NCBI RefSeq assembly: GCF_003073045.1
Contig: NC_037590.1
Coordinates: 14,142,091-14,206,090 of the forward strand
Length of the DNA stretch: 64,000 bases
Direction: 5' to 3'
Origin: Pomacea canaliculata
Lineage: Eukaryota; Mollusca; Gastropoda; Architaenioglossa; Ampullariidae
The notes under the pieces were generated by a model. The model did no database searches, was not told the DNA's origin, and was given only the letters and a program-made list of their open reading frames with translations. A program made the position numbers and the translations under genes. Below, piece by piece: positions 9,483 through 60,700 of the stretch (positions within the stretch are counted from its first letter, which is position 1; each line of letters begins with the position of its first letter).

Positions 9483-12400
9483 AATAAACGAAGCTTACAG
9501 TTCCATAAAAAGATTGAGTCTGTTTTCGCCAATAACAGACATAAGAAACAGAAATGTTCAGAGTATAAAAACCTACCTACACTACGACAGCCAATCGACC
9601 CCCGACACAAGTTGCTCTTTAGGGCGAAGGGCGCGCGAGGAAACAGCGGAATAATTCGATGGGGAAGGCAAGCTGTGTTGGCCAGGGCGGTTTTTCATTC
9701 AAATTTACGATCGGGGGCTTAGACCGTATGTTTCCCCTCGAGCATCATTGTACCCCTGTGATGTTGTGTGTGGTTCCTTCTCCAGTGATGGCAGCTCAGC
9801 CTGCGCGGTTATCTCCCATCGTTATGGGGTTATTGTCTTTCTCATCACTTTGTTTCGCTTTTCTTTCGTCTCTCCATTTTTTAAGTGGATTAAACTTTGA
9901 GTCATGTCCTCATATGCGGGATAGTATATAATTTACTCTTTTGATCATCATCCATTTCGGAGTACTCTCCCCATATGTTCTTCTTAGAGTTTTTGGACTC
10001 GTGGACATTTGACTCCTCTGACGATTAAAAGAAAACTTTGGATTTATATTTTCAGTAAACAAGATATCTATGATAAAATCCAAGTTTACAATGTAAATAT
10101 TATCATGTTTTATTTTCTTCCTTTTTCATCAAAACCATTTTCGATATATGTCTATTTACGTATACGCAATATTTTTTCCATGCTATGTGTTTCTGTCTTG
10201 CATTTGTGTTGCTGGTCACGTGCAAGTGTAAACCCGATGCTTTTTTCCATTAACCCTTTATTGCTCCGTGACCTAAAAACGATTTCTGGTGAAGAAACTA
10301 AACCGACACAACTTACGATGAAGTTTAGAAATTTTTTGTCCGTTGGATTCCATCTTTACAGGACGAGTCAGTGACGAGGACTGAGACTGACAAGCAGTGA
10401 TGTCGAGTCCTCTTGCTTCATGCCTTGTTTCTCCTGATAATCCCTGGGGGCTTCTGCCAGCCCCTTCTCGCTAGAAATGAGAAGCAATACATTTCATTTC
10501 CTGCGCTCGGGTCGCGGAACATGTATTTTGTGGGATGTATTTTTTGCGAGATGACCGTGATCCTTGGCTCTGATCCCATGCCGATAGATGGAGGGTGAGA
10601 GCGATCCCCGCTTGGAGGGTCGCATCCATCACTGGAGGACAGCAGAAGGTTCAGATAGAGGAGAACTTGCTTCAAGTTCTGTAGTGTCTCGTGTTATTAT
10701 TATTATAGTATTTCCGTTTTCAGAGTTAGTATCGTGTGGTCTCTGTTTGCATCCGCGTTCATTTTAGAACACAGGAAGGACTAAGAGGGAAATATAAGAA
10801 CACGAAATATGTCGATGAATGAGGTCAATATATTTCTGCCCTCATTCATAACATGTCACTTCATAACATGGGAAGCGAGTAAAGTATAACAACTTGAGAT
10901 GTTAGTAAAAGAATTATAATTCATTAGAATGTCAAGCCAGAACATGTCAGTAAAGGAAGAAGTATGATATAAAGACTTTTCGGTAAGAGTGAAGTGATGT
11001 CTTCTTTCAATTTTTTATTACCAGAGGCGGAAATAATATAGTTTTCTTTCCCCATCTCTGTGGCTCTCTTCTTTCTACCATGCTGTGTCTTCAGTTTTCG
11101 TTCGAGAATTTCTTTTTCTAATATTTTCGAACTATTTTTACATGGGTATGAAAGTAAAATTCAATTTGTGAGAGTCTTTCTTGCTGGAAACAATGTGAAA
11201 TGTATAGTACTTAGAATTCCTGCTTCATGTTATGAAGTACATATTTTGTATTTTACATATATATATTTAGTATTATATATTATTATAAATTCTTATGAAT
11301 ACTTGTGAATACTGATATGACAGAAGGTAACTCCATGCCTGTGTTTAATGTAAACTTCATTTTACAGTTTCCTTGCGTTGTGCTGCATAAAACTAATGTG
11401 AAATGTTTCTAAAGAAATCGTATCATAAAATATTATTGTCGAATTCCTTTTTTTTTTTTGCTTTTATATTGACCTCAGCTTTCTTTTGCCTGTGTTGTTT
11501 TATTTTTTTAGGATCGTCCTCCTAAACTAAAAAATCGCCATTTTCATTATCATTGTAGAAGACAATGTACAGCCTTTACCCCTCACATACGACTGTCCTG
11601 TTCTCACGATTATTTCTGTTTAGCATACCTCATGTCTAAGAGAATCCGTGTAAATAAAAATAAAGCCACATCTTCATCAGATGGCAAGAAGGCGGCTGGT
11701 GCCAGAAAAATTCTGAACTCTTTCGTACCCCGAGTTACGAACGTCAGCCAGGCACGTGGCGAGGGATTTTGCGCTCGGATTGGCGATGATTAATGCGCGG
11801 GGGGAGAGTGGGGTTACCATCCACCATTCAAGAGGCTGAAGTGCTTCATCTTCCTGCTCTCTAACGAGGAATGCCACCCAGCTAAAAGCTTCGTCATTGT
11901 TACCCGCTCCATTTCAGTTTACTTGACTGCAGGAAGGCAGCTGACCTCGCAATTTCTGGTCTGCGATGCTTGCGGAAAAGACCAAGTTTTTTTTAATTTC
12001 GTTTTTTTCCCCATTTTTAGGAGCATTAATGTAGCCTCAATTATTAAGTCAGGTCATTAGCTCCGAAGTGTAAATCAGATCATGACTGTGCCTGGAAGGG
12101 AACTATCGTATGTAGAAATTTGGATTAGCTTGGCTCGGTGTTCTTTTTCCCAGAGTTGCCGCTCCCTGTATAAAACAGACAATACATCAATTTTTTTTTA
12201 AATTTGAAATAAAGGTGTCTAGGTGTCTTTTTCAGCACTTGGCTTACCGTGTTTCCACTCAACTACCCAAAGAGCTAGTTTTCTTCCTGCCAAGATGAAA
12301 AAAAACCAGCTTGTGCACCCCGAGAGAGATATTTATATTCTGGAAGAAGCTAACACACTTGTGCAAGGGTAGACAATTTTCTGAGGTAATTACCATCTAG

Positions 12401-21700: not shown

Positions 21701-24700
21701 TCAGAAAACTTTCAGACGGAAAACTGAAGAGGGAGAAAAGAGGCTCGGCTCAGATATATATTCACTTGATTGTTTCTGACAATTTGTGGACTTCTTTTCG
21801 CACACGGCTGTCAGTATTTGTTGAAACATGTCGTCGACACCGTCTCCAGTTGCTGCCGAGGTCTCGAAATAACTGTAACAAACGAGATGCTCTTTTTTCG
21901 GTTCAATGTTTCATCAATTTGAAGCAATTTCTTGAAAACTCTGCCAGGTAATCAACATGGCAATCATAGCCTCCCACACACCCTCCACACACGCGCACAC
22001 ACACAAAGGATTTCCAAGAATTCAAGAGCTGAATGACTTTCCTTTTTTACATCAATTCTGTGTGTGTGTGTGTGTGAGAGAGAGAGCTTTTCATGTTTCT
22101 TTGCTATATGAAAGAGTCTGTGGCAAAACATGCTTACCGATAATTATGCAGGAGAGCAAAATCTTTGGCTTCGACTGAAGAAACGACACGCTTTTGTTTG
22201 AGATCAACCTGAAATATTAAAAGGATGAAACATATCATCCGTTACGGCACTTTGTAAGCATACGTAATTTAAGTTTGAAATATTTTCTTTTTCTATCATG
22301 CCCGTACATATACAGAGATAGATAATTTAATTCGATGCAGTCATATTAAACTGCCTGTGGTTTTAAAAAAAAAGGTTCTTGCTGCAATTGAATATACAGA
22401 ATACAATTTAGTTTTATTTAGCATTAGGCAATAATATAGAATGAAATGCAACCTTGCAACAATGCTATAATATAAAAAGATGCTGTTTGCTGGCAATCCC
22501 TTGTATTGCACCATAACTAGAACATTAAATTAACACTGATCCTAGACCTTGCTTGCAGTGATACAAGAGGTACAGGTCAGCAGTTTTGCTAGCATCTAAA
22601 ACAGTTTTTCTCTCACAGTGAGACAAAGGACAAACAATATGGCTTCCTAGCACGGCTTTCACATCCTTAAGCTCGCATGCACCCAAAGAGTCTTATAATT
22701 CAAGTCTCTGATTCAAAACGCTGGCGTGTAGACTCTGCCATGGACTCGACATGTGGCTAAGAAGATATGGTTTGTGTTTCCTAGTCGTTCATAGTAGAGT
22801 CTTTAAAAAGAGGTTAAATTTTCTACATGCAACTCACGCGCTTGCCCACGAGTGCTCATGAATACACACAGGCACGCACACAAGCAAACACACAGGTGTG
22901 CTCGATCACACGTTGACACTACACACAGACGCCGCACACCTTATTGCCGACGATCACAATATCAGGGTTGCCTGTCGCGTAGCGGTTGGCCTCCCGCACC
23001 CAAGATTCCAGGGCTTCAAAGGAGCCAGGACTGGTGACATCATACACAATAAAAATGGCGTCACTTCCGCAGTAGAGCTCGTTCCTGACGTCGAGGTACT
23101 CCGCACTTCCGGACAGATCCCACAGGTGGACTCTTACTGCAAATCAAACAGGTTCTTCACAATCTGCTTCAGTTTTTGCTTCCTCGGCGGTGCCTGATGG
23201 TTAATTATTGTGTGTACAAGAAGTGTGACGAGAAGGTGCAAGTGAGGATCGAACTGCCCTTTGACCTGGTAGTTTGGGCCAAAACTATCACAGCCGAGTA
23301 ACCGAAATATCTCACTGTCCTATCTCATACAGTATGGTTGCCCGTGCAACAATAACAAGCTAATCTCAATCTAACGCCGAGTAACAACTGACACTAGATG
23401 TGCACAAGAAATTACAGAAATTCTTTAAAGTAATCCTTCTAGCCAGATCGGATACCACTGGCTATAATTAGAACGGGAAAAGCAATGAGTTGTGAATTGT
23501 GAGCACCTAACTTGAGCAAAAGGAATTTAAAAATTGAACGTTTTCCCTGGCTAGAGAGATGGAGATTGAAAGTCGTAAACACAGCGATTGGGAAAAGAGA
23601 AGAGGGTTAAGAACACACATAGGTAAAAAAAAAAATTGTTTATACCTTTAAACAAAGCCATTAGGACCCGTTGCTTTTTTTTTTCTTTTTTGCTTGTAAA
23701 GGTCATCCCTTAACCTTTTATAGGTTGTTAGAAGCTGAGGTGTTGGAGACCGCACTTTCCTCTAGCTAGTTATTCTTGTGAGGGCGGTGCCCTATCCCTC
23801 GCCCTCTCACGGCCTTACCTTTCCCAACCCTGTATGGAGTCAGGTCCCCATGTCAACATCTGAGTTGATCAAGGGAAATTCACTGCGCTACACGGATATC
23901 GAACGCGCACGTCACACCTCTCTTCATTTCATCTAAACGAATGCAACTGAATATTAATAGTTGTAATTTGCATTTATTTTACATTTGCGTTTCATTGGTG
24001 ATGTTTGTTTATGATTTTTTTTTCAGGGGGAAGGGAGGGGTGTAGTAATTTCGACGGAAGGTGGGTTGTGAACGTAAAGTTCCCTCCTTTATTTGAAATA
24101 TTGCTTAGAACACAGTAATTCTTTGGATAGCGTCTTATATCAAGAATAAAAACCAAATAAAATCAAAGGCGGCTGCACACGTCCCTGGCAGTGCGTGCGT
24201 TCAGTATGAAGCCATGTGGAATCATGTAGGAAACACAGCTTTGCACGATAGATCGATAGGCTGTGCTCGGGCAGACCTGCTGTTGTCAGCCCCGCGAGAA
24301 ATCGAAGTGCTTGTAACCTGACCCTCTCTAAACTGGATACCACATGCCGGCACTCAAGAGCTCTGTATACTTGCCAATATGCAGGAGTGCTTGCTGGGTG
24401 GCGTGTAGGAGGCGACAGAAGAGGTGTGCTCGTGATTTTTTTCTTTTTTTTACGGGGTTGTAGCAAGGGCATAACAGTATATAATCCTCTCACATATTTT
24501 GTTTCAATGCATTGTCTTGTTCTAAAATGACGATTTATTTACGAAAAGAAACTATTTCAAAAAATGTTTCTTGTACACAAAGAACAAAGATAAAAAAAAC
24601 TAGACAGTTTAAAAAAACCTTAAATGCACTGAATTGATTGAAAAATTAATCTTTCACGCAAACCATACGAGAGAGAAAGTGGAATGGATCTTGACAACAA

Positions 24701-27700
24701 AACTAAACTAAAACATTTTTGTTTGTATCTGCTGCCAACGCCTTTCCTCCTTCGCTAGGTTCTCCTAATACGGATTTTGGAAACATCAAGAGGCATGCAA
24801 CATAAAAGGATTCTTTACCTCTTTGAGAAAATGAGGCTCTTGTGAAAGAAGGGAGGGAAGGGGGATTTAAGGAGAAGGGAACAAATGGCAAGTGTGAAGC
24901 CGATCGTTTTTAGTCTTAATCTCCATAATATCAAGAATTAAAAAATTTTCTTTTGGACGGCTCATTTCAGCCTAGCGGCGATAGCATCAAAATTCGTCAT
25001 TTGAACCTATGCCACTGTTTACTTTCTCCTCACTAGGGGGAAAAAAAGAAAAATTGTAACTCTTTGCACTTCTATTACCCGTTTTCGACCAGAAAATCAG
25101 TTTGGCTTAGGTGTTGTCCCCCCACTTCCCCAAATATGTCGCCAAAAGGTAATTTACACAAACTAATCTGGAGAGTCTACACTATTTTAGGTCTGAAGAG
25201 TTTGCTTCTCACATAGCTAATAGCAAGATCAATAGCAGCAAGTCTCTTCAGCAGCACAACATCAGTCACTGAGGAGATTAGTAAGCTGAGAATGTGGATT
25301 CTTAGGACTACAAATGTACCCGGCTGTTTCTGAGAGACCGAAGGGTTAGGTCAGGTAGTAAACAGTCCCATTACGCCTCAGACGCTGCTCTCGGCTCTTC
25401 CAGTCTTCCTATGTCTTTTCAGAAGTGTTCTTCTGGTTTGAAATTACAGAAACGCAGAACACTGCTGCTACGGATGTGCATGGGGGAGATAACTAACTCA
25501 CCCCTCGTTACTGAGACGTTCCAAGAAGACCCACATCGACACACATATTTTGTTTTCGTCAGAAATGTATAGAGAACAAGAAAACACGTTAAAAAAATAA
25601 TGTGCGTTTGAGTTTGCATTCGATAAATGTTGGATAGATCCTTCGCAGCGCATGCACAAAAAAAAAAAAACAACTGACTGTTGGTCCTTCACTGCGTCTT
25701 GAAGGAAAGTCCAACATTAAGTACTGCGTGGTGGGTATCACACACAGAAAGAGATAGAAATCTTTAGCGTTAATAACTTACAATCTGTGTTCTTCACTGT
25801 CTGAATCTTGAACCCATAATCAACGCCCACTGTTGGCTGGTAACCAGCACTGAACTGCAGCAAAATATAAACCAGTGAGATCATTTTCGCTCTCTCTCTC
25901 TCTCTCTTCAGCCCCTCCCCAATTTTTTTTCTCTCTCTCCCGTACTCATGAACCCAGGTGAACGTGCATAATTATACGTAAATATCTATACACACGCAGG
26001 ATTGACAGATATAGGAAACACACACATGACACGGAACATAACATTTATTCCATACCCTGAAATATATCGTTTTACAAACTCTTACCTACCTTTGCTATGT
26101 AGTGTTTTGGTCACCTATTTCAATAAAAATTTGGTTTTCTTTCTCAAATCGATGTAACCTAATGAAACATGACAATGTGAACATAACTACAATATTTACT
26201 GTTGCTAGTTCAAACATTTTCAAATTTACATACACTAAATTCTGTTATGTTATTTACACAATTATGCAATTGTTTGCATCATTTCAACAGGCATATTAAG
26301 ATGATAAATCTATATGGTTGCATGAAGTATATGTATCAAATTAAAGATCAGAGTGATCAACTGTCAAATCTTGTATTTTAAGCTAAACAAGGAAGCGTGT
26401 GCTTTTGTTCTGCATCTATTTAAATAGCTGCAATATACTATAGGGTATCAAATATCTAGCTACTCTTTTTTTTTTTTTTTGCTTTATCATCAATCAAAGC
26501 CAGTAATTTTAACTCCTCCATAATTGTTTTCAAAATGTTTCTCAGTTACATGTTTGATTCTTCGGAAACAAATCCAAAAAGCACATAGACAATTGAGGAG
26601 CTGATTAAATCAGGAAGTGTGAGTCATATTACCGACCATTCTAGAAGAGACCATAGAAATAGAAGATAATCTAAGATTTCCGTCATTGTACAGTAAGCCA
26701 CAAAAGCTATGGGAGGCAACTTTAGTTTGCAACACTGTGGTTACTGAATAAAGCAGGTGATAGCCTCCCTCTAGCCAACCTAAAGCCTAAGCCAAAAAAA
26801 AAAAGTTTGTTCTGACCATCCATTTACAAACACTGTACTACTGCAAATACTCTTTCAAAAAACAGGAATCCCATTAATAACAGACAAACCTCTGATTCTT
26901 GGTTTTGTGTCTCATCTTCATCCTGCCATTGGGTATACAAATACACCATTTGATGTATAGGTAAAAACAAAGCAAATCAATTACCAAATAAAACTGAGTG
27001 TCATTATTCAAAATTAAGGCAACGCCTCTAACTTATTTTACACATGCTTACTTATTCTTAAATTATTAAATTAAGGCAGGCCCTTATGATATTTATTAGT
27101 GTTCTTTGCTCCTATCTGAGCTAATAAAAGAGCACATTAAGCAACATCTGTATTGAAGAGGGTAAAGCAAGCAATATATCTGTGTATTGAAGTAGGTTAG
27201 GCAGTATTCATATGCCTCTGTATATCATTATTTTTTGCTGTATTCATGTATGTCTACATTTTAATTCAACTATAGCATTCTAACATATGGAAAGATATGT
27301 ATTAATAAAGTAAAACACATATAACCTCTTTAATTATTTCAGTGACCACTGACACCCCAATATTCACTCAATCACACAAAATGTAGCACGTATATGAGCT
27401 CAGAAGCAGCTAATGGAGTTGAACATACAAGAAGTTAGTACCTACCTTGCTTTCACAGAAATGCTTTATAAGGCATGTTTTTCCTGTCCCTGCATTTCCA
27501 ATTCCAACAATCTGAGGGAAAGTGAGTAAAGTATTATTATATTTTCTCCACGTTACTGTTATTTACGCTATATTATGATGCAAAGTTTTGAAAAAAATTT
27601 ATGTGTTATTTAAAAGAAATGAAATTGCACAAATCTAAATTTGGAAACTTCTAAATTTTAAAATATACTTTTTATGAAGTGTAATCAAGGAGCCTATAGA

Positions 27701-27944
27701 ACTTATATATGTGGTTGGTTGTGTAAAGCTCCTCATGATGGCTTGTGGTTGCACTTATGTAGTTGAAGCAGTGAAGATTACGACTGTGAATCCCTTTCTT
27801 TTATAATCAAAAGATTACATTTAGTCTTCTACTGGGTGTGCGATTACGAGCACGCCTACAGCGATAAACATCTACCTTAATCCAAACAAGCGTGGAGACT
27901 GCTTCATGATAATTTTTTGTCAGATGGCCTGGAGTTCTGTTCAT
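21701..27944 (-). CDS. DNAJC27: RJL-family Rab-like small GTPase (DNAJC27/RBJ-like)
   Basis: Six coding exons chain in frame: 27,876-27,944; 27,446-27,511; 25,782-25,854; 22,940-23,136; 22,138-22,208; 21,701-21,872 (stop at 21,701). They give about 215 residues with GT-AG junctions throughout. The P-loop GNAGTGKT lies at residues 28-35, switch II reads WDLSGSAEY (75-83), the guanine-specificity box is NKVD (134-137) and the SAK-type box is ETSA (162-165). Serine follows the switch-II glycine where Rabs have the catalytic glutamine, as in RJL proteins generally, so weak intrinsic hydrolysis is expected. There is no C-terminal prenylation motif. Animal DNAJC27 normally adds a J domain after the GTPase; none was found, and exon 6 reads through to a stop. 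Either a donor inside exon 6 (for example GTGTGC near 21,805) leads to an unlocated J exon, or this copy has no J domain. RJL GTPases occur mostly in ciliated eukaryotes, and human DNAJC27 has been tied to MEK/ERK signalling. Confidence 0.85.
22059..22088 (+). repeat. GT/GA compound microsatellite
   Basis: A TG run passes directly into a GA run inside intron 5 of the RJL GTPase gene. Confidence 0.8.
23755..23905 (-). repeat. possible tRNA-derived SINE fragment
   Basis: Read on the minus strand, the stretch contains GTTCGATATCC, close to the tRNA B-box GGTTCGANTCC, then a compact GC-rich body unlike the AT-rich intron around it. No clear A box or tail was seen. The call rests on composition and one box. 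Confidence 0.25.
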
Positions 27945-28038: not shown

Positions 28039-28133
28039 GTTGCTATGGTGACACCTAGCCAAGTTCAGAGCAGTAGCTTGTTAACTCTGTTCCGATTGGC
28101 CACTCTACAAAAATACCAATCATTTACTTCCGG
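28039..28133 (-). promoter_or_regulatory. RJL GTPase promoter with RFX X-box, CCAAT box and ETS site
   Basis: On the coding strand of the GTPase gene, GTCACCATAGCAAC (28,052 down to 28,039) fits the RFX X-box pattern at every defined position and ends 95 bp upstream of the ATG at 27,944. Further upstream are a CCAAT box (28,095-28,099) and CCGGAAGT, a perfect ETS core (28,126-28,133). In C. elegans and vertebrates X-boxes close to the start codon mark genes switched on by RFX factors in ciliated cells. The sequence match is direct; the ciliary interpretation is inference. Confidence 0.6.
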
Positions 28134-29727
28134 TGTTGGTCAATTGTTTGTCGTACGAGGTGCTTTCGAAGTGCAAAGACATTTGTACTCAGCGATCTTT
28201 CAATCTTATTTTAAATGTTAAAATTTGTTTAAATTTTCTTTAAATATTCCGTATCTCAAATTAAAAATCGATCGTGTTGTATAAATGGCAAGGAGAGCCA
28301 TGAAGTATGCTGAAGACGTCGGCTCGAATTAGATATGTCGACAGAGAGTGGCATTGTATCGATCCATGGAATCGAGGTAGATATTCGTGGTCGATCAACA
28401 TTGTCACGATGAGCGTAAACTGTGTAGGCTGTAATAAAGGTGTTCCGAACTATTACTAATATAAGTTCCACATTAGCATGAAAAGAACATTTTTTTATTT
28501 AAAGTCTGCAATAAAATTTTAAATGATAGCCATTTAAACTCCCTGCAATAGCTGTCGATGTAACGAGACCCGATGTCTCAGAACCATATGAATTCGTATC
28601 CTTATGGTCTGTCGACGGGATGACAATTAGTAATGCGGTGTGGATTATAAATAATAATATATGACTTCTGCGGAGCATATGTCTCTCGATGGATTATCAG
28701 ACATATATATTCGTGGTTTTCCAACGCATATAATAAAATCCATGTGTTGTGTGTGTTTGCTTTTTCATGTTATTCTAACACATTAATTATAATTAGATCA
28801 AAGCGTGGCTTGTATGAGACATCATTCAAGGAACCTCTGTGTAATAAAAATGAATGTTAACAGTGTAACCATTTTTTTCTCCCCCGGCTCCAAGAAACAA
28901 AATTATACGTACGTACCGCTATTTCACGCGATAAAAAAAAATGGATGACACCTGTATAATTATTGATCTGTTTTGTAGCTCGTACAGGCAGCGCGCTTAA
29001 AGTACTATCACTGACCCCAAACGGAATTACACTCCAAGCATTAAATTCTCTCAGTCTTGCAGGTAGTAATTCGCAAATGACAGCAAACTAATGATTGTTG
29101 TTTTCATACTTTTTAACATGGTATAGTACAATCCGTTTTCAGTTTAAATAAGTGTATTGAACAGAAAAGGTAAGACCGCTGAAAGTCAGCACATGCGAAT
29201 AAACGTGGGCCCCGTTTCACTTGAGATATCGCTTTAAAACGCTTAATTAATGCGTAAAACTTTACAAAAATCAATTGGAAAAATAACGCCTGTTGCCAGT
29301 CTGGCTTCAACACGTCAGTTCTAAGCGTGTTCCCTCAACCGTGCGCATGCTCTGAACTACCGGTGCTCAGCGACTTTTCCGCCCTATGAATCGGACTTTA
29401 AACTCAAAGATTCAATGCTTAAAGAAAATAATAAAGTAAGATCATATTATTTTAATTTATATTTTGGGGATAAAATTACTCTCCCGTAAATTCATTAATT
29501 TTCAAAAATATAAATGATTAAATACTTGACGTAAAAGAAGACGGTTTCAATAACAGGAACCACAGTAGCCGCTCACCGCTCTATTTACGGAGCAGTTGCC
29601 GGATAGCAGATGCTTTCCGATGGAAAGGCAACAAGCTGGCGTCTGCTAGCAACCTGCATGAGAGCAATACACCGTCACTGTCTTCGTGCGTTTAACCACG
29701 CTGTAGCTAAAGATCATTTTTTAAACA
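28134..29727. other. intergenic region between RJL GTPase and DNAJC22 promoters
   Basis: The two genes are divergent, with about 1.8 kb between start codons. The left end belongs to the GTPase promoter. An NRF1-like TGCGCATGCTC lies at 29,342-29,352, 376 bp upstream of the DNAJC22 start. No coding exon or repeat family was recognised in the AT-rich middle. Confidence 0.4.
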
Positions 29728-31506
29728 ATGGCAAACTTAACAATAGCTTACATTTTGTGGTTTTTTCTGGGAATATTTGGTGTTCACCACTTTTACCTCC
29801 GGCGGGATCGCCAAGCCTTCGTGTGGTGGAGTACTCTAGGCGGCTTTTTTGTGTCGGCTGGGTTAGAGATCTTTGGCGTCTTCCTGAGTATGTGAAGGAG
29901 TGTAACGAAGACCAGAATGTAGATGTCAGGGACCGTAATGACAACAGTTTTACTGTAAGATCCAGAGGAAAACCGAAAGTAGGGTTTGCTAGATTTTTTG
30001 GAATGATGATGATGGGAATCATTTTGGGGTACTTGGTACAGGCTGCGTGCCCCAAAGAAGTGTTCAACAGTCCAGGCATTGTTGGTTGGATTTGTAGTAT
30101 GGTGATTCCTCCATTTGCCGCTGCCATCGGTAATTTCTTAATCATTGCTTATCTTATATGGAAATATACAGCATGTGTTCTTTAGTCTCCCATATGTTGA
30201 CATTTCCAGTGTGTGCCGAATTGTGCATTTATAGTTACATATTTCTTTGTAACTTCATTTAGAAAAATGATTTATTGAATTATATAAAATAATATAGATA
30301 CTGAGTAAATATCAAAAATACATGTAATTAACAAATTGCTTTTGCAGGCTTTTTGGAAATCAAATGTGAATGGGTTTGGTAAAGCAAATATTTCAAATCT
30401 ATTTGAAATAAATTTTAAAACCATATGATAAAAAAAAAAAATAAATGTTTCTATTTTCCTGTTTGGTCTCGTTTTTCTTTTAATCCTAGGTGTACACCTT
30501 GTGGCCAACATTGGACTACTACAAGCAAGCTTGAAGTGGCCATTGATTGGAGCATATTTAGGCAGTCTTTGGCTTTTAGAAGATCCCAATAATATTGGTA
30601 TGGTCAGTCTTTTGTCTTCACTGGCAACTTTTTTCCAAGGTTTTAGGTGGAAGCCAGTTCAGAAGCATTGCGGACTTTGCAAACGTCTGACTATTTTAAG
30701 CCTTCTGTGGGACAGCATACTTGTTGCTTTTGGGCTCAGCACTGTACTATAATGCTAACATCATCACAAAGGATGGTGAGTCAGTCCCATTGCGAGAGGC
30801 GGTCCACCACTTCTTCAAATCTCCAGCTTGGACACAGACAAAGGAGTCATTCAGGCGATTGTGGTACTCTTTGCAGGCTCATGGCTGGAGGAACGTTCTA
30901 AATGAGCTGTTGAAGGATTTAGATCCACAAGGAGAGGCAAATGCATACAAGGTGAGTCTACATATGGTTCAATTTTTATCTTAGTATTTCTGCTGCATGG
31001 CTAAGGTTCATTGATAATGCTGTCTTTTTTATATTGTTAATCAAAAATCAACCAATTCTAAAAGAAGCCTTATGAAATACTAGTATCTGACTCACAACAC
31101 CTTTCAACCTCTATTATCATATGTGCAAAATTTAATAATTTAGAGAATCACAGGTCTGAGTCAAAAATGATTAATCTTAGAGCAAACACTGTAAATGCAA
31201 CAATTAAAAAACAAACCCACATTTTCAGATACTAAGAGTAAGAGTACAAAAAACATGGAAAACCATACATACATATTTTGCAGGTGCTCGGACTGGATGA
31301 CTCTGCAACCCAGGAAGATATCAAAGCTCAGTATCGGAAACTAGTAAAGAGAGTGGCATCCTGACAAGCACAAAGACTCAGAAAAAGAGGAATCTCATCA
31401 AAGGTTTATGGAGATTCAACAAGCATATAACACATTATCTACGCTTAAAGCTCGCAGGACACAAAAAAGTAGCAGCTTTTCAGAAAAAAAGCATACAGAA
31501 TTTTAA
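29728..31506 (+). CDS. DNAJC22: DNAJC22 (wurst-like) membrane J protein, with three apparent frame shifts
   Basis: Three exons match the family: 29,728-30,129, 30,490-30,951 and 31,284-31,506, with AG/GT junctions in phase. The N-terminus has a TM2-like block (VHHFYLRRDRQAFVWW, then TLGG). Several hydrophobic segments follow, then the LREAVHHFFKSPAW region, and a C-terminal J domain with helix II, the HPD motif (EWHPDKHKDSEK) and helix III (FMEIQQAYNTLS). Drosophila wurst acts in clathrin-mediated endocytosis and airway clearance, and human DNAJC22 is about 341 residues. The reading frame breaks three times: at the T6 run 29,845-29,850, at GGG 30,709-30,711, and at 31,346-31,353 just before HPD. 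Protein similarity continues on both sides of each break. Introns are kept, so this is not a processed copy. It is either a recent unitary pseudogene or it carries consensus indel errors. Confidence 0.8.
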
Positions 31507-38500: not shown

Positions 38501-41500
38501 TTATTCTACCCCATGTGCAAAGATCATGACTAGTCCTGGTTCTATGATGAGGTCATCTGGCATGTGCTGGTTTTCACAATACATCACAACCACAGCTTGT
38601 TTGCCTGTTAATTAAAAAAAAATGTTCAGAACCATACTAAAAATGTATAAAGCAGTATAAAGGCAGAACATCACAACTGACCAGCAGCTTCCCAGGACAC
38701 TGCTTTTTTTAAATCTTTAAATTTCAAACAAAATAGGTAAACTACTTAAATCTAAATCCAATGTCAAAAGCAAAATTAACCACAGGTAATAATATATCAT
38801 GCCTAAATCCTAAGTGCAGTTATATGCTGAACACTTTTCCCCTCATGAATGGACTGCATCAACTTTCTCTTTTCCAACTGGATATATTTGATATGAAAGA
38901 CTTAAGTAGGAACAGATTGTTATATTTAAATTATCATTTCAAAGTAATAATTCCTATGGTAATTTTCTGAAATTATAAAATATGATCCTTGACAATATAT
39001 ATCACAGGTGAGGTCCATTTTCTGAGCATTTTTAAAATTAGCATGTTACTCTTTGTTCTATTTTCTGTTTTCCTTCACATAAAAGGCTAAAATATTGCTA
39101 GGTAATGGGTTATTATTTCTATTAACAGAACTGCAAGAAGATACCTGGAATTCGTTTGGCCACATAGTTTTCATACTGTCTCCGGTTGAGCTGTCGAGTC
39201 TCCAAAGTGCTGAGGCCGTTAGGCCATCTCCTCTCATGTGCATTTTCCATCAACTCATTCACAATATGTGTTGGACATCCACTGTCTATAAGAGCACGCT
39301 TGATGACTGCCTGCAGAACAGCATCAGGTGTGGAGATCATGCCACCCCATCGAGTGACTCGAGCAGCCTGAAGGCTTGCAACCCACCTAACAGAGAAAAA
39401 AACAATGAAACTAAAAAATCCAGTAAGAAGCACAGTAAAGGGAGGAGCAGATGGGTCAAGACTGTTTAGAACATTGCAGAAAGGTGGAGATCTACTTACC
39501 AGTTGCGAACAGAAAATCATGCTGCCAAAACAGTGACAAGCCACACCTCTTTCTAAAGATAAGAATTTCTACTAAATTTGATTATTGAAACTCCTTGAAA
39601 ATAATATTATTGTGAAATATAATTATTTTGCTTTTTTAAATGGACAATGTGGTGACCAAAGGAGACATCTGACCTGAAAGGGAGATGTCCTCATTGAGTT
39701 AAGCCATTTATTTCAAAATATAAATGAAGAGCAAAATGTCTGTTGCTTTATTCTATTTAACTGTTAAAGTTACCTGATTACATCTTCATTTTCCATTGAC
39801 GCTTGAATTTCTCGAATGCGTGGATTACTAACTCGCATTGACCGCATTAGTTCCTACACACATAATACGTAGCATATTACCACATGTGCAACAGAAGCCA
39901 AGTGACTGTGCTTCAGACAGAGATCATTTGTTGATGAAGAGGAGTGCAGCATCCTAATTATCAATAGTATCTAAATAATGCAAATGCTCATATAGCCAGA
40001 GACAATCAACCTACTATTGGAAGATGCATAATACAAATGTTGTTCACATTAACTCCTGTCAATTAAACAACAAAATAGCTAAGTGAAAAAGTGACAAAGG
40101 AAATTTCTGATAAATTGCAGATAAATTAAACTTGCACATTAAGCTTCAGTCACTACCTTCAGCAGCTGTATTTCTCGCTTCTGTTCATTCAGTTGTAACT
40201 TGGACTCGATGATCTCACTCTGCATCTCTGCCATCTTTTGCTGATGACTGCTAACCAGACTTCTCAGCTCTCGCACACAGTTGTGTTCCTAAATGTGGCA
40301 TTGGGGATACAATAAAACATCAATTAGAAAAGGATATCTAAATGCATAAAAACAGGTCTTAGCATTTGCAACACACGACTGCTGTAGCACTTCTCACTCG
40401 TGCATGTTGTTTAGTAATGGATCATATTTGTCCCTGCATGTATACCTCAATCAATTTAAACCTTACACGGGAAATCAAATTCCCATATACATACCTTTAA
40501 CTCATCTTTTGGGATAACTAGTCCACAACCCTCTTGACACTGTACTGGTTTTTTGGGATTGTGCTCACATTCCTGCAAGTGAGAGGGGAGAGCATCCAGC
40601 TTGACAATGGCAGTACAGCCATACACTGCATTGTCACAAGCAATCTGAAGTCTTGATAGTAAGTTTCGCAGGATTCGAGGGGCAGGTTTGAGCTGATTAA
40701 AGGTGATGGGGCTTCTGTCTACCGGACAGGTTGGTTGCCTAGTGAGCCACTCCTGAATGCATGATGCACAAAACGCATGTTCACATTGTGGGGCCTGTAA
40801 AATAAAAATTAATGATAATCTAAATATATACTTTAACATTCCAGTTGTTATGTAAAATTTTATTCACACTTTGCATGCTTAATACAGCTATAGTATAATC
40901 AAAATTAAACTGGGATATGTAGTGTAGTGAAACTGTAATCAATTTGAACGATGTCTCCTACCCTTTTCAGTGTTCATGACATCTTGCCACCTTTACAATC
41001 TTTCTCTCTCCCTTATTATCATTAGAGCAATTTCTGAGGTCAGAACCACACAAACAAGATGATTTGATAACCACTATGTTATCTAATTGTTCACTCGCTG
41101 CCTGAAAATGACAAAGACAGTTACCACACTTTTTTTCATAAGAACCATCTGTGATCTACCTAACTAGTTGGTAGTCAAGTATACCAACAGAACTCTGTTA
41201 ATGATTGATCCTTTTTTATCACCATCATAGCCCAGCCCAATGGCAGAGTGGTAAAGGGTTTGCTACACATGACAGGTTTATAAGCAGTTTTTTTAATTAT
41301 TTTATGCAGGAAAGACCCAGATCTGTCAGTGATTGTAAGCTTAAAGGAATTGAGATTCAAATACCATTAGTCTTAGTATGTTGGTCTGATGATGATCACA
41401 TTGTTTGAATCTTTTGTGGGACTTTTCTAATGCTGATAATAATATTTTTTGTGTTAAACATTTAAAAGTGATCTGACAAGTGGAGTGGACTTTGATGATG

Positions 41501-42121
41501 TTCTCATGAAACAATGACTTTTTATTTGGTGATGCTATGTGCTCTGTATGATTGTATGAGCTGGTAAACCATCTCATAGACAATATTTTCTAACACAGTT
41601 GAATTTCATTATCATGATAATGTCTAATGCCAAGTTTGTTCACCAGAGGCACTGTCCTCGCTTAAGGACTTTGAACCCAATTTATGCCTCCTTGAGAGAT
41701 AATTGCATTTTTATGCTAATGGACTGTCTCAGTTTGGTGAAGCCTGGTAGCTTATTGATGTTGTACTCCTTATGTTGCATATCCCTCTGGTTGTTCATTT
41801 GAAAAAAAAAGGAGAAAAAAAGAAGAGAAAATGTACAAGTTTAATATTAAGCTGAGAATAAAGTCACAGGAAGTCCACTGGCAGATCTGTGTTATGATGA
41901 GGGCAAGAACATGTGCTGTCAAATACTGCCTGTAGGTTTTGTACAGTGTGGCAAACCACTAAATTAAAGATATAATGGCATAAAATCAAACTTCATGTTA
42001 AAAATAGGCATTATGAAGTTCAAGCAAATACCTGAAGTGGTTCTTCCATCACACCACTGCATATTGGACAGATCAGTTCTTCATCCACTTCACCTTCAAA
42101 TCTGACTATCTCATAACCCAT
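38501..42121 (-). CDS. RNF41: RNF41 / NRDP1 E3 ubiquitin ligase, complete
   Basis: Six coding exons join without a break: 42,032-42,121; 40,495-40,794; 40,157-40,288; 39,774-39,853; 39,145-39,386; 38,501-38,604. They total 948 nt, or 315 residues, against 317 in human. The RING finger (Cys18, Cys21, Cys34, His36, Cys39, Cys42, Cys53, Asp56) has the Asp as last ligand that is typical of NRDP1. A zinc-binding segment follows (CDNAVYGC, then CQEGCGL), then a coiled coil (about residues 135-180), and the C-terminal USP8- and substrate-binding domain (ARVTRWGGMISTPDAVLQAV; IMIF-type C-terminus ending HGVE). NRDP1 ubiquitinates ErbB3 and other receptors, BRUCE and parkin, and is stabilised by the deubiquitinase USP8. 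An acceptor (TTCCAG) 7 nt before the ATG implies an upstream non-coding exon. No frame errors were seen. Confidence 0.97.
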
Positions 42122-42300
42122 GCTGTTCCTGGAAAAATTAAGCTGATTTTTAAAACGGGCTTCTAGTCAAAAATGTCAAATAAAACCTGAAAGCAGTGAG
42201 AGGAAATGATATTTGTCTTACAATTTGTGATACTGACAATATAAATCCAACAGAAAAATTCAGACTTAAAGAAGCAAGTTTAATAAGGAAGTACACTAAT

Positions 42301-44480: not shown

Positions 44481-46340
44481 GTGGTTTTCGATGTGGTGGG
44501 ATCAAAATTAGTATGTAAATGAGTCCATCGGTGTAATTAGAAAATTCTTTGTTGTCATATTTAGGTACTAAAGGTATTGTGGTTGTTTCAATCAGGGTGC
44601 CTTTATCAATGTTTGACACCGGATAACATCCTTCTGAAAAAAAATCTTTGCCATAAAATGAATAAGGCTGCTAATCTAGTATGACAATTTTTTAATGGCT
44701 TTGAAACAATCTAAACCATAGGAAACATGGGTTTCGTTTGCCCATCCAGAACCACGATCAAACAATTAAGGTAGGGCAACTGAAGGGTCTAAAGTAACTG
44801 AATCCTTCAAAAAAAAATGTTTAAACTATACACAACCATATCAATACCAGGTTTACAAAGACAAAACAACTTGTAAAATAATATATAACTGTACAACTTT
44901 AGCAGTAAGAAACTAATATTAGTACCTAAATCTAAATAGAAATCTAGAATAGGGTAACTTAAGAGATCTGGCAACCAGTACAGTACCTCACCATTGCGGA
45001 CTTGGACACCGAGAACAAGGGACCACAACAGGAAAAAAGTGCACTAGAAACAGTAAACAATAACAGTGGCATTATGAAGCAGCAACCCTCCTACACTTCC
45101 CTTTATTCTAATCTCTTACCCATCCCCCCACCGTGCAAAATCACCTTTAAACAGAAGCACTTTTACCTCCCAAAGTCAAATATGCTGTATATGAACTATA
45201 CTACTAATTGGCATTATCTTTCTGTGAAGAAAAAATGCATTACTTAAGTGGATCCACACACCATGACTCTCATCTGCAAATCATAATCTTAAAGGATGAA
45301 ATAAAGGTATCCACTCAAGTAAGGCATTCTAATGTTTTGGGGAGGTGTTTTCTTCCCTGTTGCCTTCATGTTAGGTAGAAACAAATTTAGCTAGCATTTC
45401 AAGAAATAAATACTTTAAAAAACTAGTCCACATATGATCATGGTCAAAACATTGCCCCCATATAAAGGGATAAGATTATTCCAAAGCTCACATAGACTGA
45501 ATGTCACATGTATGAGACCGTCACCCTTTTTGTTAGTGCTTTTGTCTATAGTGCTGGTATGGTTTCCAGGAGGCCCGGAGTGAATGGACAGGCTTACACT
45601 AGCAAGAAAAGTAGTTTTGAATTCAAGGAAATTTAAATGTTTTGACTTCTCTGAGTTTGGAGTCTTAGCTTTTTCAGAATAACTGGGTCCAATTGTATTA
45701 TAGAAGGACTGTTGACACCATGATATAACACTAAAAAAAGGCTTTAGAGTTTGAAAAGGGTTAGATCAGTTTAAAATATCTACTAACCCTAACTCTTGTA
45801 ACCCACACTCCCATTTCTGATTGTATTTCATCGCATCCATAAACCTTCCAAAAACTTTATTTGTAATAAAGGTTAGTTTCAAGAAAACTGCATGCATAGG
45901 AGGAAAGTAAAGACTTTTATAAAGTTTCTGAAACATATCTGCTGTGTTAAAAAAAAAAAGAATTTTTTTCTGCTTCGAAACTCTATTTTCACACAAGCCC
46001 ACAGGTGCATACACAAAATACAAACAATTTTATCTTACAAAGAAAGAAATTTATTATATGTGTATGTCATATTTTTTTGGCATTTATTTATAGGTTACAT
46101 CAGTAACAACATTCAATTCTCCATTTTCCTCTCCTGACACTTCTGTGTAATGATTATTCTCAAAGATATACAGTTTTCATGATTAAAGCACTCTAAAAGA
46201 TCCCTCTAATATTCTAACTATTCTGATTTCCTGTTAGTCCTTAATCATAAAAAATATATTAATTCAAAATGTATATAAATATTGACGACTGCGGTGCACA
46301 ATAGACCACTGATGCACCTTGTCTCTACAATGTCCCACCA
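44481..46340. other. intergenic interval between gene B and RNF41
   Basis: AT-rich sequence between the stop of gene B and the inferred RNF41 promoter. No exon, repeat family or RNA gene was recognised. Confidence 0.4.
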
Positions 46341-57777: not shown

Positions 57778-60700
57778 TTAGCAGTTGTTATAAAAGATTT
57801 CTTTCTGCAAATCTATTTCTCTCACTTTCTGTAACAAAGAGCTGTTTGACTGAAGCATCAATACGGTGTCGAAAGATGTGTGAGAGAAATGTCTGCCCAT
57901 TGAAGTGGTTTAAATTTGTCTAAAGGACAGCTCAAAAGCACAAGATATCTGAATACCCGAATTATTACACACTATATTACACACTGACTTGTGCAATGGG
58001 ATGCGCCTGATCACATTTACTTACACTCATCAATTCCTGATGAAATATCGCGGATCACAGCTTGCTGATGTAATCGCTGCAACAAAAGAAGTTCTTGAAA
58101 TGCATCATTCTGGTATTAAATAATTTTAGAAAGAGCAGCGTTTTTTAATAGTATTCTTTTGCAATAGCTAAACGTATGTTTCACGCACCTCATAAGATTC
58201 AACATACCAGCCTTATGATTTTGGTATTTGCTGTCCGCATCCCCCTGGCCAAGACTTCAGCACCGAAATCGCTAAGCATGGAGGATATGCCGGAGGCGAA
58301 CTTGGCCAGAACCTTCAGAGTCTCGATGCAGTCGGTGCGTGCGATGTCCATCCATGGAACTTGTGGAGACGGGGCCGGAACTGTCGTATCCTAGAGAAAT
58401 GATTACTTATAGAAAGTCTAGACCTTGACCCTGTCCGTGTGGGGAGATGTATCTAGGAAGGCGGGAAAGCCCGGGTACAGGGACTATAGGAGTTAGAGGT
58501 TGAACAGGGAGAGAGTGGGGACGAGCCGACCCGTAGAGCAGACAGGGAAACGTATATGTGGAAATAAATATATGTATAAACGTTCAACCAGAGTCTAGTG
58601 TTGGTATTGAGAGAGAGAGAAGATATGACAGGACTAAGATGATATTTTATCCGCACTACTTTCAAACAATTGGAAGCCGAAGGGAGGGGAAGACGGGGTG
58701 CCCGTAGCTATAGAGATCAGATGACATGCCATACAGAATGTGCAAGAATGTGATGAAATGTATGTTCTTCTATCTGCTCGCAACGAAATGTCAGAATAGA
58801 TGTTATTTGTACCACTATGCGGAATTAAGCACACACTTTCAGTTTTTGTTACAGGGGCAAATAAAATTTAGAAATAATAAGGATGGAACCCGACAAAGAA
58901 CTAACCGAGTAACTGGGTACAGAAGACAGCTGGGATGTGTATGGGTCCTTTCCTGAGAATTGTATCTCAATTATCATTCTTTCCTTAGATTCAGGTCTTT
59001 CTCGCTTCTTGTCCTCTTCAGGGATCACTCTTTCCTTAGATTTAGGTCTTTCTCGCTTCTTGTCCTCTTCAGGGATCACTCTTTCCTTAGATTTAGGTTT
59101 TTTTCGCTTCTTGTCATCTTCAGAGTCAGACGTGAACGCTGGCAAGACAGAGGCAGGCTGTGCAGTTTTTCGGGACGGTATTTATGACAATGCTCATGTC
59201 ATACTAGTCGTAACCAGTGGTAGGCTGCTTAATTATTTCATACCCCCTTGACGGCGATGGTACGACAAAATACCTGATGTTATCGGTCTGCTTCACATGA
59301 GTGATTTAACTGCAACGTGTAACAGGGCTTCTGCTTACGCAAAAAATTGCGTACAGTACGCATTAAAAGTTCGGAGGACCCCTCCAATTTTCGTCAATGG
59401 GGTCCCATTCAAATTTGGGCAAAGAACAGGGACCCCTTACAAATCTGAAGAAGGGGTCCCTGGGACCCCAAAGAATTTAGCTTTAGCAGAAGCCCTGAGT
59501 GTAAGATATGTTTTTGAATCCCAGAGGGCAATTAGCAGGCAGTACCTACGAAGAAGCAAGTGGAAGAATCACACAGCATAGCATCAACTATACCAGCACA
59601 CATTCATAGTCCAACATAATCGCAATTCAGACTCACATTAAAATTACAATTCATTAACACATGGTAGCGTTCAGAAGTCGCATGGCCAGAACAACAAAGG
59701 ACTGCCCTATTCTGTTGGTCATGCATGCAAGCACACAGAATCGGCAGCCTGACGGGAGCTGATGGAACTTTCCCGATAAAACATGCCTGTCACCACGTGG
59801 AATTGCAGACTACTTTTGAAAATGCTTTTATAGAGAATCTCTAGGTCACGTTGGGCCATCCAATAACTTTGGGATTCAAGCTCTTCTCGCCTTTTACTGA
59901 TAAACTGTTGTAATGAAAAAACAGAGAAGAAAGACAGCCCGCTCTCTGTGGGATTTATAAAATGTGTGACTAATAGCGTGAATGCTTCATGATAGTGACG
60001 ACCATTACTTGAATCTACCTTACTGATAGTGATATAGGAACGTCTTCGCGTTCAACTTGCCTAGAGAACCACGAAGAAGATGAAAGAGTTCTACCTTTCA
60101 GTGCCTCAATGTTGTCTTGTAAGTGACTAACGTCTTCAATAAGATTATCCGAGACACGCTGAAATCAAAATGTTTAAGTCTTTGTTAGCTGGACGCATAC
60201 TATCGCACATGTATTTTTTGGCAAATTATTATTTTATGAGACCTGCCAAACATTGCCACGTTCTAGGTACCAGACAACATGTATGCACACATAAGAGAAT
60301 GTTATCGGGAATTTGTTTTTTGTGCTCGCGGGGGGGGGGGAGCATCACATCCTGGCTTTTGTGCACACTCTATTTGTATTCTCGCAAAAGCTTTTACGTA
60401 ATCGTTAAGTACATAAAGTGGCGTAAAAGTCTCAACTTTACCTCGAGTTCATTGATCCTGCTTTGTAGTCTTTTAGTGACGGATTCTGAGACAAAGAAAT
60501 ACACGGTAAGTGAAGGCTGTCTATTCTTGCTGCAGATTGCCAGGTATCTAGCTATAATTTGTGGACACACGTTACAATGGCAACCTGCTTTTTTAATTTA
60601 CGACAAATACCATTTCAGAAAATGTACTCAGGGAAATAGAAAGAGACATATCTCTTGACAGGCCCCGAGACTTAATTAGTTAATTACAACTACATGTACT

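Follow-up and report, generated by a model that had tools for sequence, protein, structure and literature searches.

A putative RFX-type X-box upstream of a second, apparently DnaJ-less RJL-family GTPase gene in Pomacea canaliculata

The stretch of Pomacea canaliculata DNA analysed here (the window, 64,000 nucleotides) carries a minus-strand GTPase gene with an RFX-type X-box close to its start codon. On balance, this X-box is probably bound and used by RFX-family proteins as part of the promoter of the GTPase gene, which would be a second, DnaJ-less member of the RJL family. RFX dimers would bind the imperfect palindrome directly upstream of the GTPase gene, and the bound RFX, together with nearby CCAAT and ETS-type elements, would support transcription of the gene. 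The sequence and position of the X-box, its strong excess in the genome, the gene model and the family placement in a small tree are observed; RFX binding, activation and the choice of which divergent gene the X-box serves are inferred.

The X-box and the GTPase gene model

The minus strand at 28039–28052 reads GTCACCATAGCAAC, a 14-mer, and the plus strand there reads GTTGCTATGGTGAC. The X-box consensus is printed as GTNRCC-N0-3-RGYAAC in an excerpt of PMC10530576. All defined positions of the 14-mer agree with it, the spacer is AT, and the sequence is a near-palindrome. The initial annotation had claimed a match to the RFX X-box pattern at each defined position, a distance of 95 bp to the ATG and the orientation of the GTPase gene. 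The reading of 28039–28052 bears out the first, the ATG at 27944 is indeed separated by 95 bp from the near edge of the X-box, and X-box and gene are both on the minus strand. The snail site shares with the RFX X-box its consensus match, an AT spacer, near-palindromy and nearness to a start codon. The full, oriented match 95 bp from the ATG counts in favour of a functional site. The frame upstream of ATG 27944 is open and contains the X-box, with no in-frame ATG before its stop; this counts against a regulatory site, and an unrecognised upstream coding exon could span the X-box.

The GTPase gene has six exons encoding 215 residues, with GT-AG borders at all five introns, and its protein matches the Pfam family Ras (E 3.5e-43). 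The X-box and the exons are as follows.

28039..28052, minus strand: X-box GTCACCATAGCAAC, full match to GTNRCC-N2(AT)-RGYAAC
27876..27944, minus strand: exon 1, peptide MNRTPGHLTKNYHEAVSTLVWIK, ATG at 27944, donor AAG/GTAGAT (exon/intron)
27446..27511, minus strand: exon 2, P-loop GNAGTGKT
25782..25854, minus strand: exon 3, switch I region (TVGVDYG)
22940..23136, minus strand: exon 4, switch II DLSGSAEYLDVRNELY, Ser in place of Ras Gln61
22138..22208, minus strand: exon 5
21701..21872, minus strand: exon 6 with stop

In the alignment with Xenopus DNAJC27, the last residues of exon 1 meet the beginning of the GTPase domain. Downstream of the GTPase gene, the remaining 21.7 kb of the window contain no minus-strand HPD tripeptide; the window has two minus-strand HPDs, at 44599 and 50924, both upstream of the gene. 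An Rfam search gave 0 matches. Elsewhere, the window carries a minus-strand RNF41-like RING-finger gene at 40142–42166 (named by eye, RING by Pfam) and a tandem array at 58973–59123 with three copies of a 51-base unit (95% matches).

Family placement of the GTPase

Against PDB sequences, the best match of the GTPase protein is Xenopus DNAJC27 (6jmg, 123.3 bits), and Rab30 scores 121.1 bits; a core piece gives 82.1 bits with DNAJC27 and 80.0 with rab1a. That both pairs of scores hardly separate DNAJC27 from Rabs counts against the RJL assignment. In a small tree of nine rows, from which two partial snail rows were dropped and which holds no protist RJL, the window GTPase is sister to snail plus Xenopus DNAJC27 with 98/98 support, apart from Rabs and Ras, and this grouping counts for it. 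The window GTPase is 42% identical to snail DNAJC27, 35% to Xenopus DNAJC27 and 36% to Rab30.

The likeness to vertebrate DNAJC27/RBJ extends from the tree grouping to the GNA start of the P-loop and to the residues DYG and VRNE, which the window GTPase and Xenopus DNAJC27 have in common. Both also lack Gln at the Ras-61 position. In the window GTPase the catalytic Gln of Ras is lost, with Ser there (DLSGS), and Xenopus Rbj has His75 at that position (excerpt of PMC6776491). The difference lies in the DnaJ domain. An excerpt of the same paper describes RJL family members as having a DnaJ domain and places that of Xenopus DNAJC27 at residues 203–273. In the window GTPase no DnaJ domain was found, and the snail DNAJC27 is a separate gene on C4.

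That gene was reached with the Xenopus GTPase fragment. Two Rab/Ras-like frames, 30% identical, are the best single rows for this fragment in the genome; after them comes the C4 gene, near 23.61 Mb, with exons 54, 59, 83 and 68% identical. By tblastn, the C4 gene is 56–86% identical by exon to Xenopus DNAJC27. When joined (C4:23612855–23615132), it scores 308.6 bits against 6jmg and aligns up to residue 229, into the DnaJ region. Pfam assigned no family to its last 72-residue piece taken alone.

The initial annotation had called the window gene an RJL GTPase and had treated RJL and DNAJC27 as one. Membership in the RJL family holds, at the strength of 98/98 in a small tree; identity with DNAJC27 was rejected because the C4 gene is closer, the DnaJ domain is missing, and the window GTPase is only 42% identical to the snail DNAJC27. 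From its sequence relationships, the window gene is best placed in the RJL family but not within DNAJC27, apparently as a DnaJ-less second member.

Flagellated protists reportedly have DnaJ-less RJL proteins consisting of the GTPase domain alone, as Elias and Archibald are said to have described in 2009. The window gene, with its GTPase domain alone, would be like these proteins.

The 20 kb around snail DNAJC27, which include 9.9 kb upstream of its ATG, contain no strict, relaxed or RYYNYYATRRNRAC X-box. They contain four one-mismatch forms, the nearest upstream at 3.7 kb. DNAJC27 could have a distant non-coding first exon. As it stands, an apparently X-box-less DNAJC27 goes against extending the X-box claim to all RJL genes.

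Chance expectation and genome-wide frequency of the X-box

That the X-box is a chance match without function is, in our estimate, very unlikely. For the window, the expectation was taken from 30 Markov-simulated sequences. The strict X-box with spacer 1–3 occurs once, with 0.33 expected, and with spacer 2 once, with 0.07 expected; with spacer 0–3 there are two matches and 0.43 expected, the other match being at 10208–10219. The looser pattern RYYNYYATRRNRAC occurs four times, with 2.2 expected, and two of the four are the X-box at 28039–28052 on both strands. Another looser pattern, GYYNCC(N0-3)RGNAAC, occurs twice, near the expectation of 1.77. The 0.33 strict matches expected in the window and the near-chance numbers of the looser patterns favour a fortuitous match and count against a functional site, as does the choice of the motif after the fact among many motifs and windows.

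The genome-wide frequency argues otherwise. The scan covered 440,159,624 bases in 24 contigs. The strict AT-centred X-box GTNRCCATRGYAAC has 1099 matches (564 and 535 by strand, perfect palindromes being counted twice). The reversed pattern has 59, and a control in which the RCCATRGY core was kept and the flanks were permuted has 71. The excess over these two matched controls is about 15 to 19 fold, so that most strict AT-centred matches would not be due to chance. The exact 14-mer occurs 55 times, against one occurrence of the reversed 14-mer; its two strands are unequal (17 forward, 38 reverse). From 1099 against 59 and 71, a chance match is unlikely for GTCACCATAGCAAC (about 5–7%), and the X-box at 28039–28052 is very probably not one. 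This excess counts in favour of a functional site. Position adds to it: at 1099 per 440.16 Mb, the probability that a strict site falls in the 200 bp before any one given ATG is about 5e-4, a figure that is no clean p-value because motif and window were picked after the fact. A strict site less than 100 bp from an ATG is improbable at the observed density.

Some of the genome matches are coding. In frame, the X-box reads V-[TA]-[MI]-[VA]-T, and at one locus (L070) the exact 14-mer lies within a GPCR coding frame and is read V-T-I-A-T. Therefore the genome-wide excess overstates the number of regulatory sites, and the coding matches count against the favoured reading. A start-codon context (RCCATGG) as the source of the excess was rejected, since the control that retains the RCCATRGY core has only 71 matches. 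Spread of the X-box by a single repeat was rejected as well: no pair of the 57 X-box loci that were fetched has common flanks of at least 80 bp, which counts for the favoured reading.

Outside these 57 loci, three exact 14-mers lie about 9.45 kb apart at C8:19800616, 19810063 and 19819528, probably a tandem duplication. Most of the sampled strict X-boxes are outside CpG-normal sequence and beside no gene nameable as ciliary.

Probable promoter setting, the divergent neighbour and the proposed ciliary regulon

Beyond the X-box, seen from the GTPase gene, lie candidate promoter elements and, further off, a gene on the opposite strand.

28094..28101, minus strand: extended CCAAT box GGCCAATC (92 CCAAT on both strands in the window)
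28116..28120, plus strand: second CCAAT box
28126..28133, minus strand: ETS-type element CCGGAAGT (three such in the window)
28100..29700, no strand: CpG-normal intergenic stretch between the two divergent genes (CpG o/e 1.29, against 0.61 for the window)
29595..29653, no strand: three RFX half-sites, GTTGCC, GGCAAC and AGCAAC, within 60 bp, 75–133 bp upstream of ATG 29728
29728..31503 (approximate), plus strand: divergent neighbour, TM2 domain then DnaJ domain with HPD, ATG at 29728

The X-box lies at the edge of the CpG-normal stretch, and CpG o/e around it is 1.01, the fifth rank among the 57 X-box loci. Both this value and the CCAAT pair with CCGGAAGT, all within 81 bp of the X-box, count for the favoured reading; going by these features, the X-box is probably within a promoter region. 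The X-box loci as a group behave otherwise. Their median CpG o/e is 0.72, against 0.68 for the background, and values of at least 1.0 are found at 5 of the 57 loci, against 9.6% of background pieces. Thus, by the CpG measure, X-box loci in general do not look like promoters, which counts against the favoured reading.

The divergent neighbour, whose Pfam domains (TM2, DnaJ) come from frames chosen and joined by hand, has the TM2 plus DnaJ layout of DNAJC22, and we take it to be DNAJC22-like. The X-box may mainly serve this gene, or both genes through a shared promoter region, in which case its link to the GTPase gene would be positional; we regard this as unlikely. It would accord with the near-palindromic form of the X-box and with the CCAAT boxes, the ETS-type element and the CpG-normal stretch, all of which lie on the DNAJC22-like side. 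The far-side position of the CCAAT and ETS elements, which could serve the divergent gene, counts against the assignment of the X-box to the GTPase gene. The three half-sites that closely precede the DNAJC22-like ATG point the same way, and no other triple of this kind occurs among the 67 RFX half-sites of the window; however, the cluster may signal a separate promoter nearer that ATG. Distance also speaks for the GTPase gene, with the X-box 95 bp from its ATG and 1.68 kb from the DNAJC22-like ATG.

For the favoured reading, a site serving the GTPase gene, a further step, proposed in the initial annotation, would be that the X-box puts the RJL gene in the ciliary regulon. RFX would then activate the gene in ciliated cells, and its GTPase would act with the flagellar apparatus. 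We hold this step as tentative and rather doubtful. It draws on the literature for several points. Ciliary promoters of choanoflagellates are enriched in RFX motifs, with 21.9% against 2.0% (excerpt of PMC10530576). RJL was proposed as ciliary from its species distribution, and the RJL of T. cruzi apparently localises to the flagellar pocket (excerpt of PMC4736243). DNAJC27 is among the computed partners of IFT172 (excerpt of PMC7515907). On the other side, the same excerpt of PMC4736243 reports human RBJ as nuclear and calls the ciliary status of RJL/RBJ uncertain. According to an excerpt of PMC2375033, a single-gene upstream X-box with a degenerate consensus is not predictive, and ciliary genes are overrepresented in lists of genes whose X-box is conserved between two Drosophila species. 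A shallow literature search found no statement linking RFX to DNAJC27 or RJL, and DNAJC27 is unnamed in the main texts of PMC5838959, PMC3338421, PMC5245798 and PMC10530576.

Among sequence features beside the X-box, FOX-type 7-mers at 28145–28151 and 27864–27870 would agree with ciliary control, although such 7-mers commonly arise by chance.

The ciliary genes of the snail were compared with controls in 2-kb stretches reaching about 1.8–1.9 kb upstream of the first domain match. The ciliary set (n=12) comprised five tektins, three intronless chaperonin-family genes, IFT20, IFT57 and two of three B9 genes; the chaperonin-family genes were taken as BBS-like. The control set (n=10) comprised nine CCT genes and one dynein light intermediate chain gene. 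Within about 1.8–1.9 kb upstream, the strict X-box was found at none of the 12 ciliary or probably ciliary genes and at none of the 10 controls; at tektin d, IFT57, both B9 genes and several controls, the domain match starts inside the profile, so that their promoters may lie outside the stretch. In the absence of strict X-boxes from these stretches the snail site differs from the known RFX X-box, and the result goes against membership in a ciliary regulon. The relaxed pattern gives weak support in the other direction, with 4/12 ciliary genes (tektins a, b and e and one chaperonin-like gene) against 1/10 controls. The pattern RYYNYYATRRNRAC was found at 3/12 (one within the IFT57 match) and 1/10, and one-mismatch strict forms at 3/11 and 2/9, the last two stretches being left out.

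The genome-wide list of GTNRCCATRGYAAC is complete for C1 only, with 89 rows at 80 places, which for 45.4 Mb gives about 0.03 strict X-boxes expected per 15 kb. A DHC gene on C1 (36.10 Mb) has a strict X-box 8.0 kb upstream at C1:36092532 (L094), and a B9 gene (30.43 Mb) has one 13.5 kb upstream at C1:30412589 (L044), the exact 14-mer; both are in the orientation of the gene. A tektin (25.22 Mb) and another DHC gene (21.34 Mb) have no strict X-box within 100 kb. A strict X-box within 14 kb upstream is thus present at two of the four ciliary genes found on C1, and against the expectation of about 0.03 this leans, weakly, towards the ciliary reading. The surroundings of both sites speak against it. 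Judged by eye, the 1.6 kb read next to the X-box on the DHC side contain a PGS1-like gene in the opposite orientation, and the frames adjoining the X-box on the B9 side do not look like a B9-family gene. The DHC gene was dropped as a positive control because the PGS1-like gene adjoins the site.

Genes beside the other X-box loci were sought in 269 frames, picked by a weak coding score with at most five per locus, at 56 loci, the window's own locus (L043) being excluded. No ciliary Pfam family was found near these 56 loci, a result of low power in which most frames were unmatched, and it tells against the ciliary regulon to that extent. The families found were Cadherin, Trypsin, 7tm_1, Cadherin_FAT4_N, MH2, Glyco_transf_22, I-set, ANF_receptor, PMT_2, Srsx, Ig_3 and PDGF. 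By eye and Pfam together, few of the genes beside X-box loci could be named.

The snail DNAJC27, which has no strict or relaxed X-box in its 20 kb, likewise argues against the ciliary regulon, and for ciliary membership of DNAJC27 itself the present sequence evidence is negative. A flawless X-box beside a single gene should still not be taken as a sign of ciliary membership. It is conceivable, although we think it quite unlikely, that the two snail RJL genes have separate roles, the X-box-less DNAJC27, which retains its DnaJ region, being outside the ciliary programme and the RFX-controlled DnaJ-less RJL keeping an old flagellar role. If true, and if lophotrochozoans generally share the arrangement, it would account for a vertebrate RBJ that looks nuclear in a family whose species distribution looks ciliary. 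A DnaJ-less second RJL gene that an animal has in addition to DNAJC27, and that starts close to an RFX-type site, would offer a concrete gene for the question of how RJL relates to cilia.
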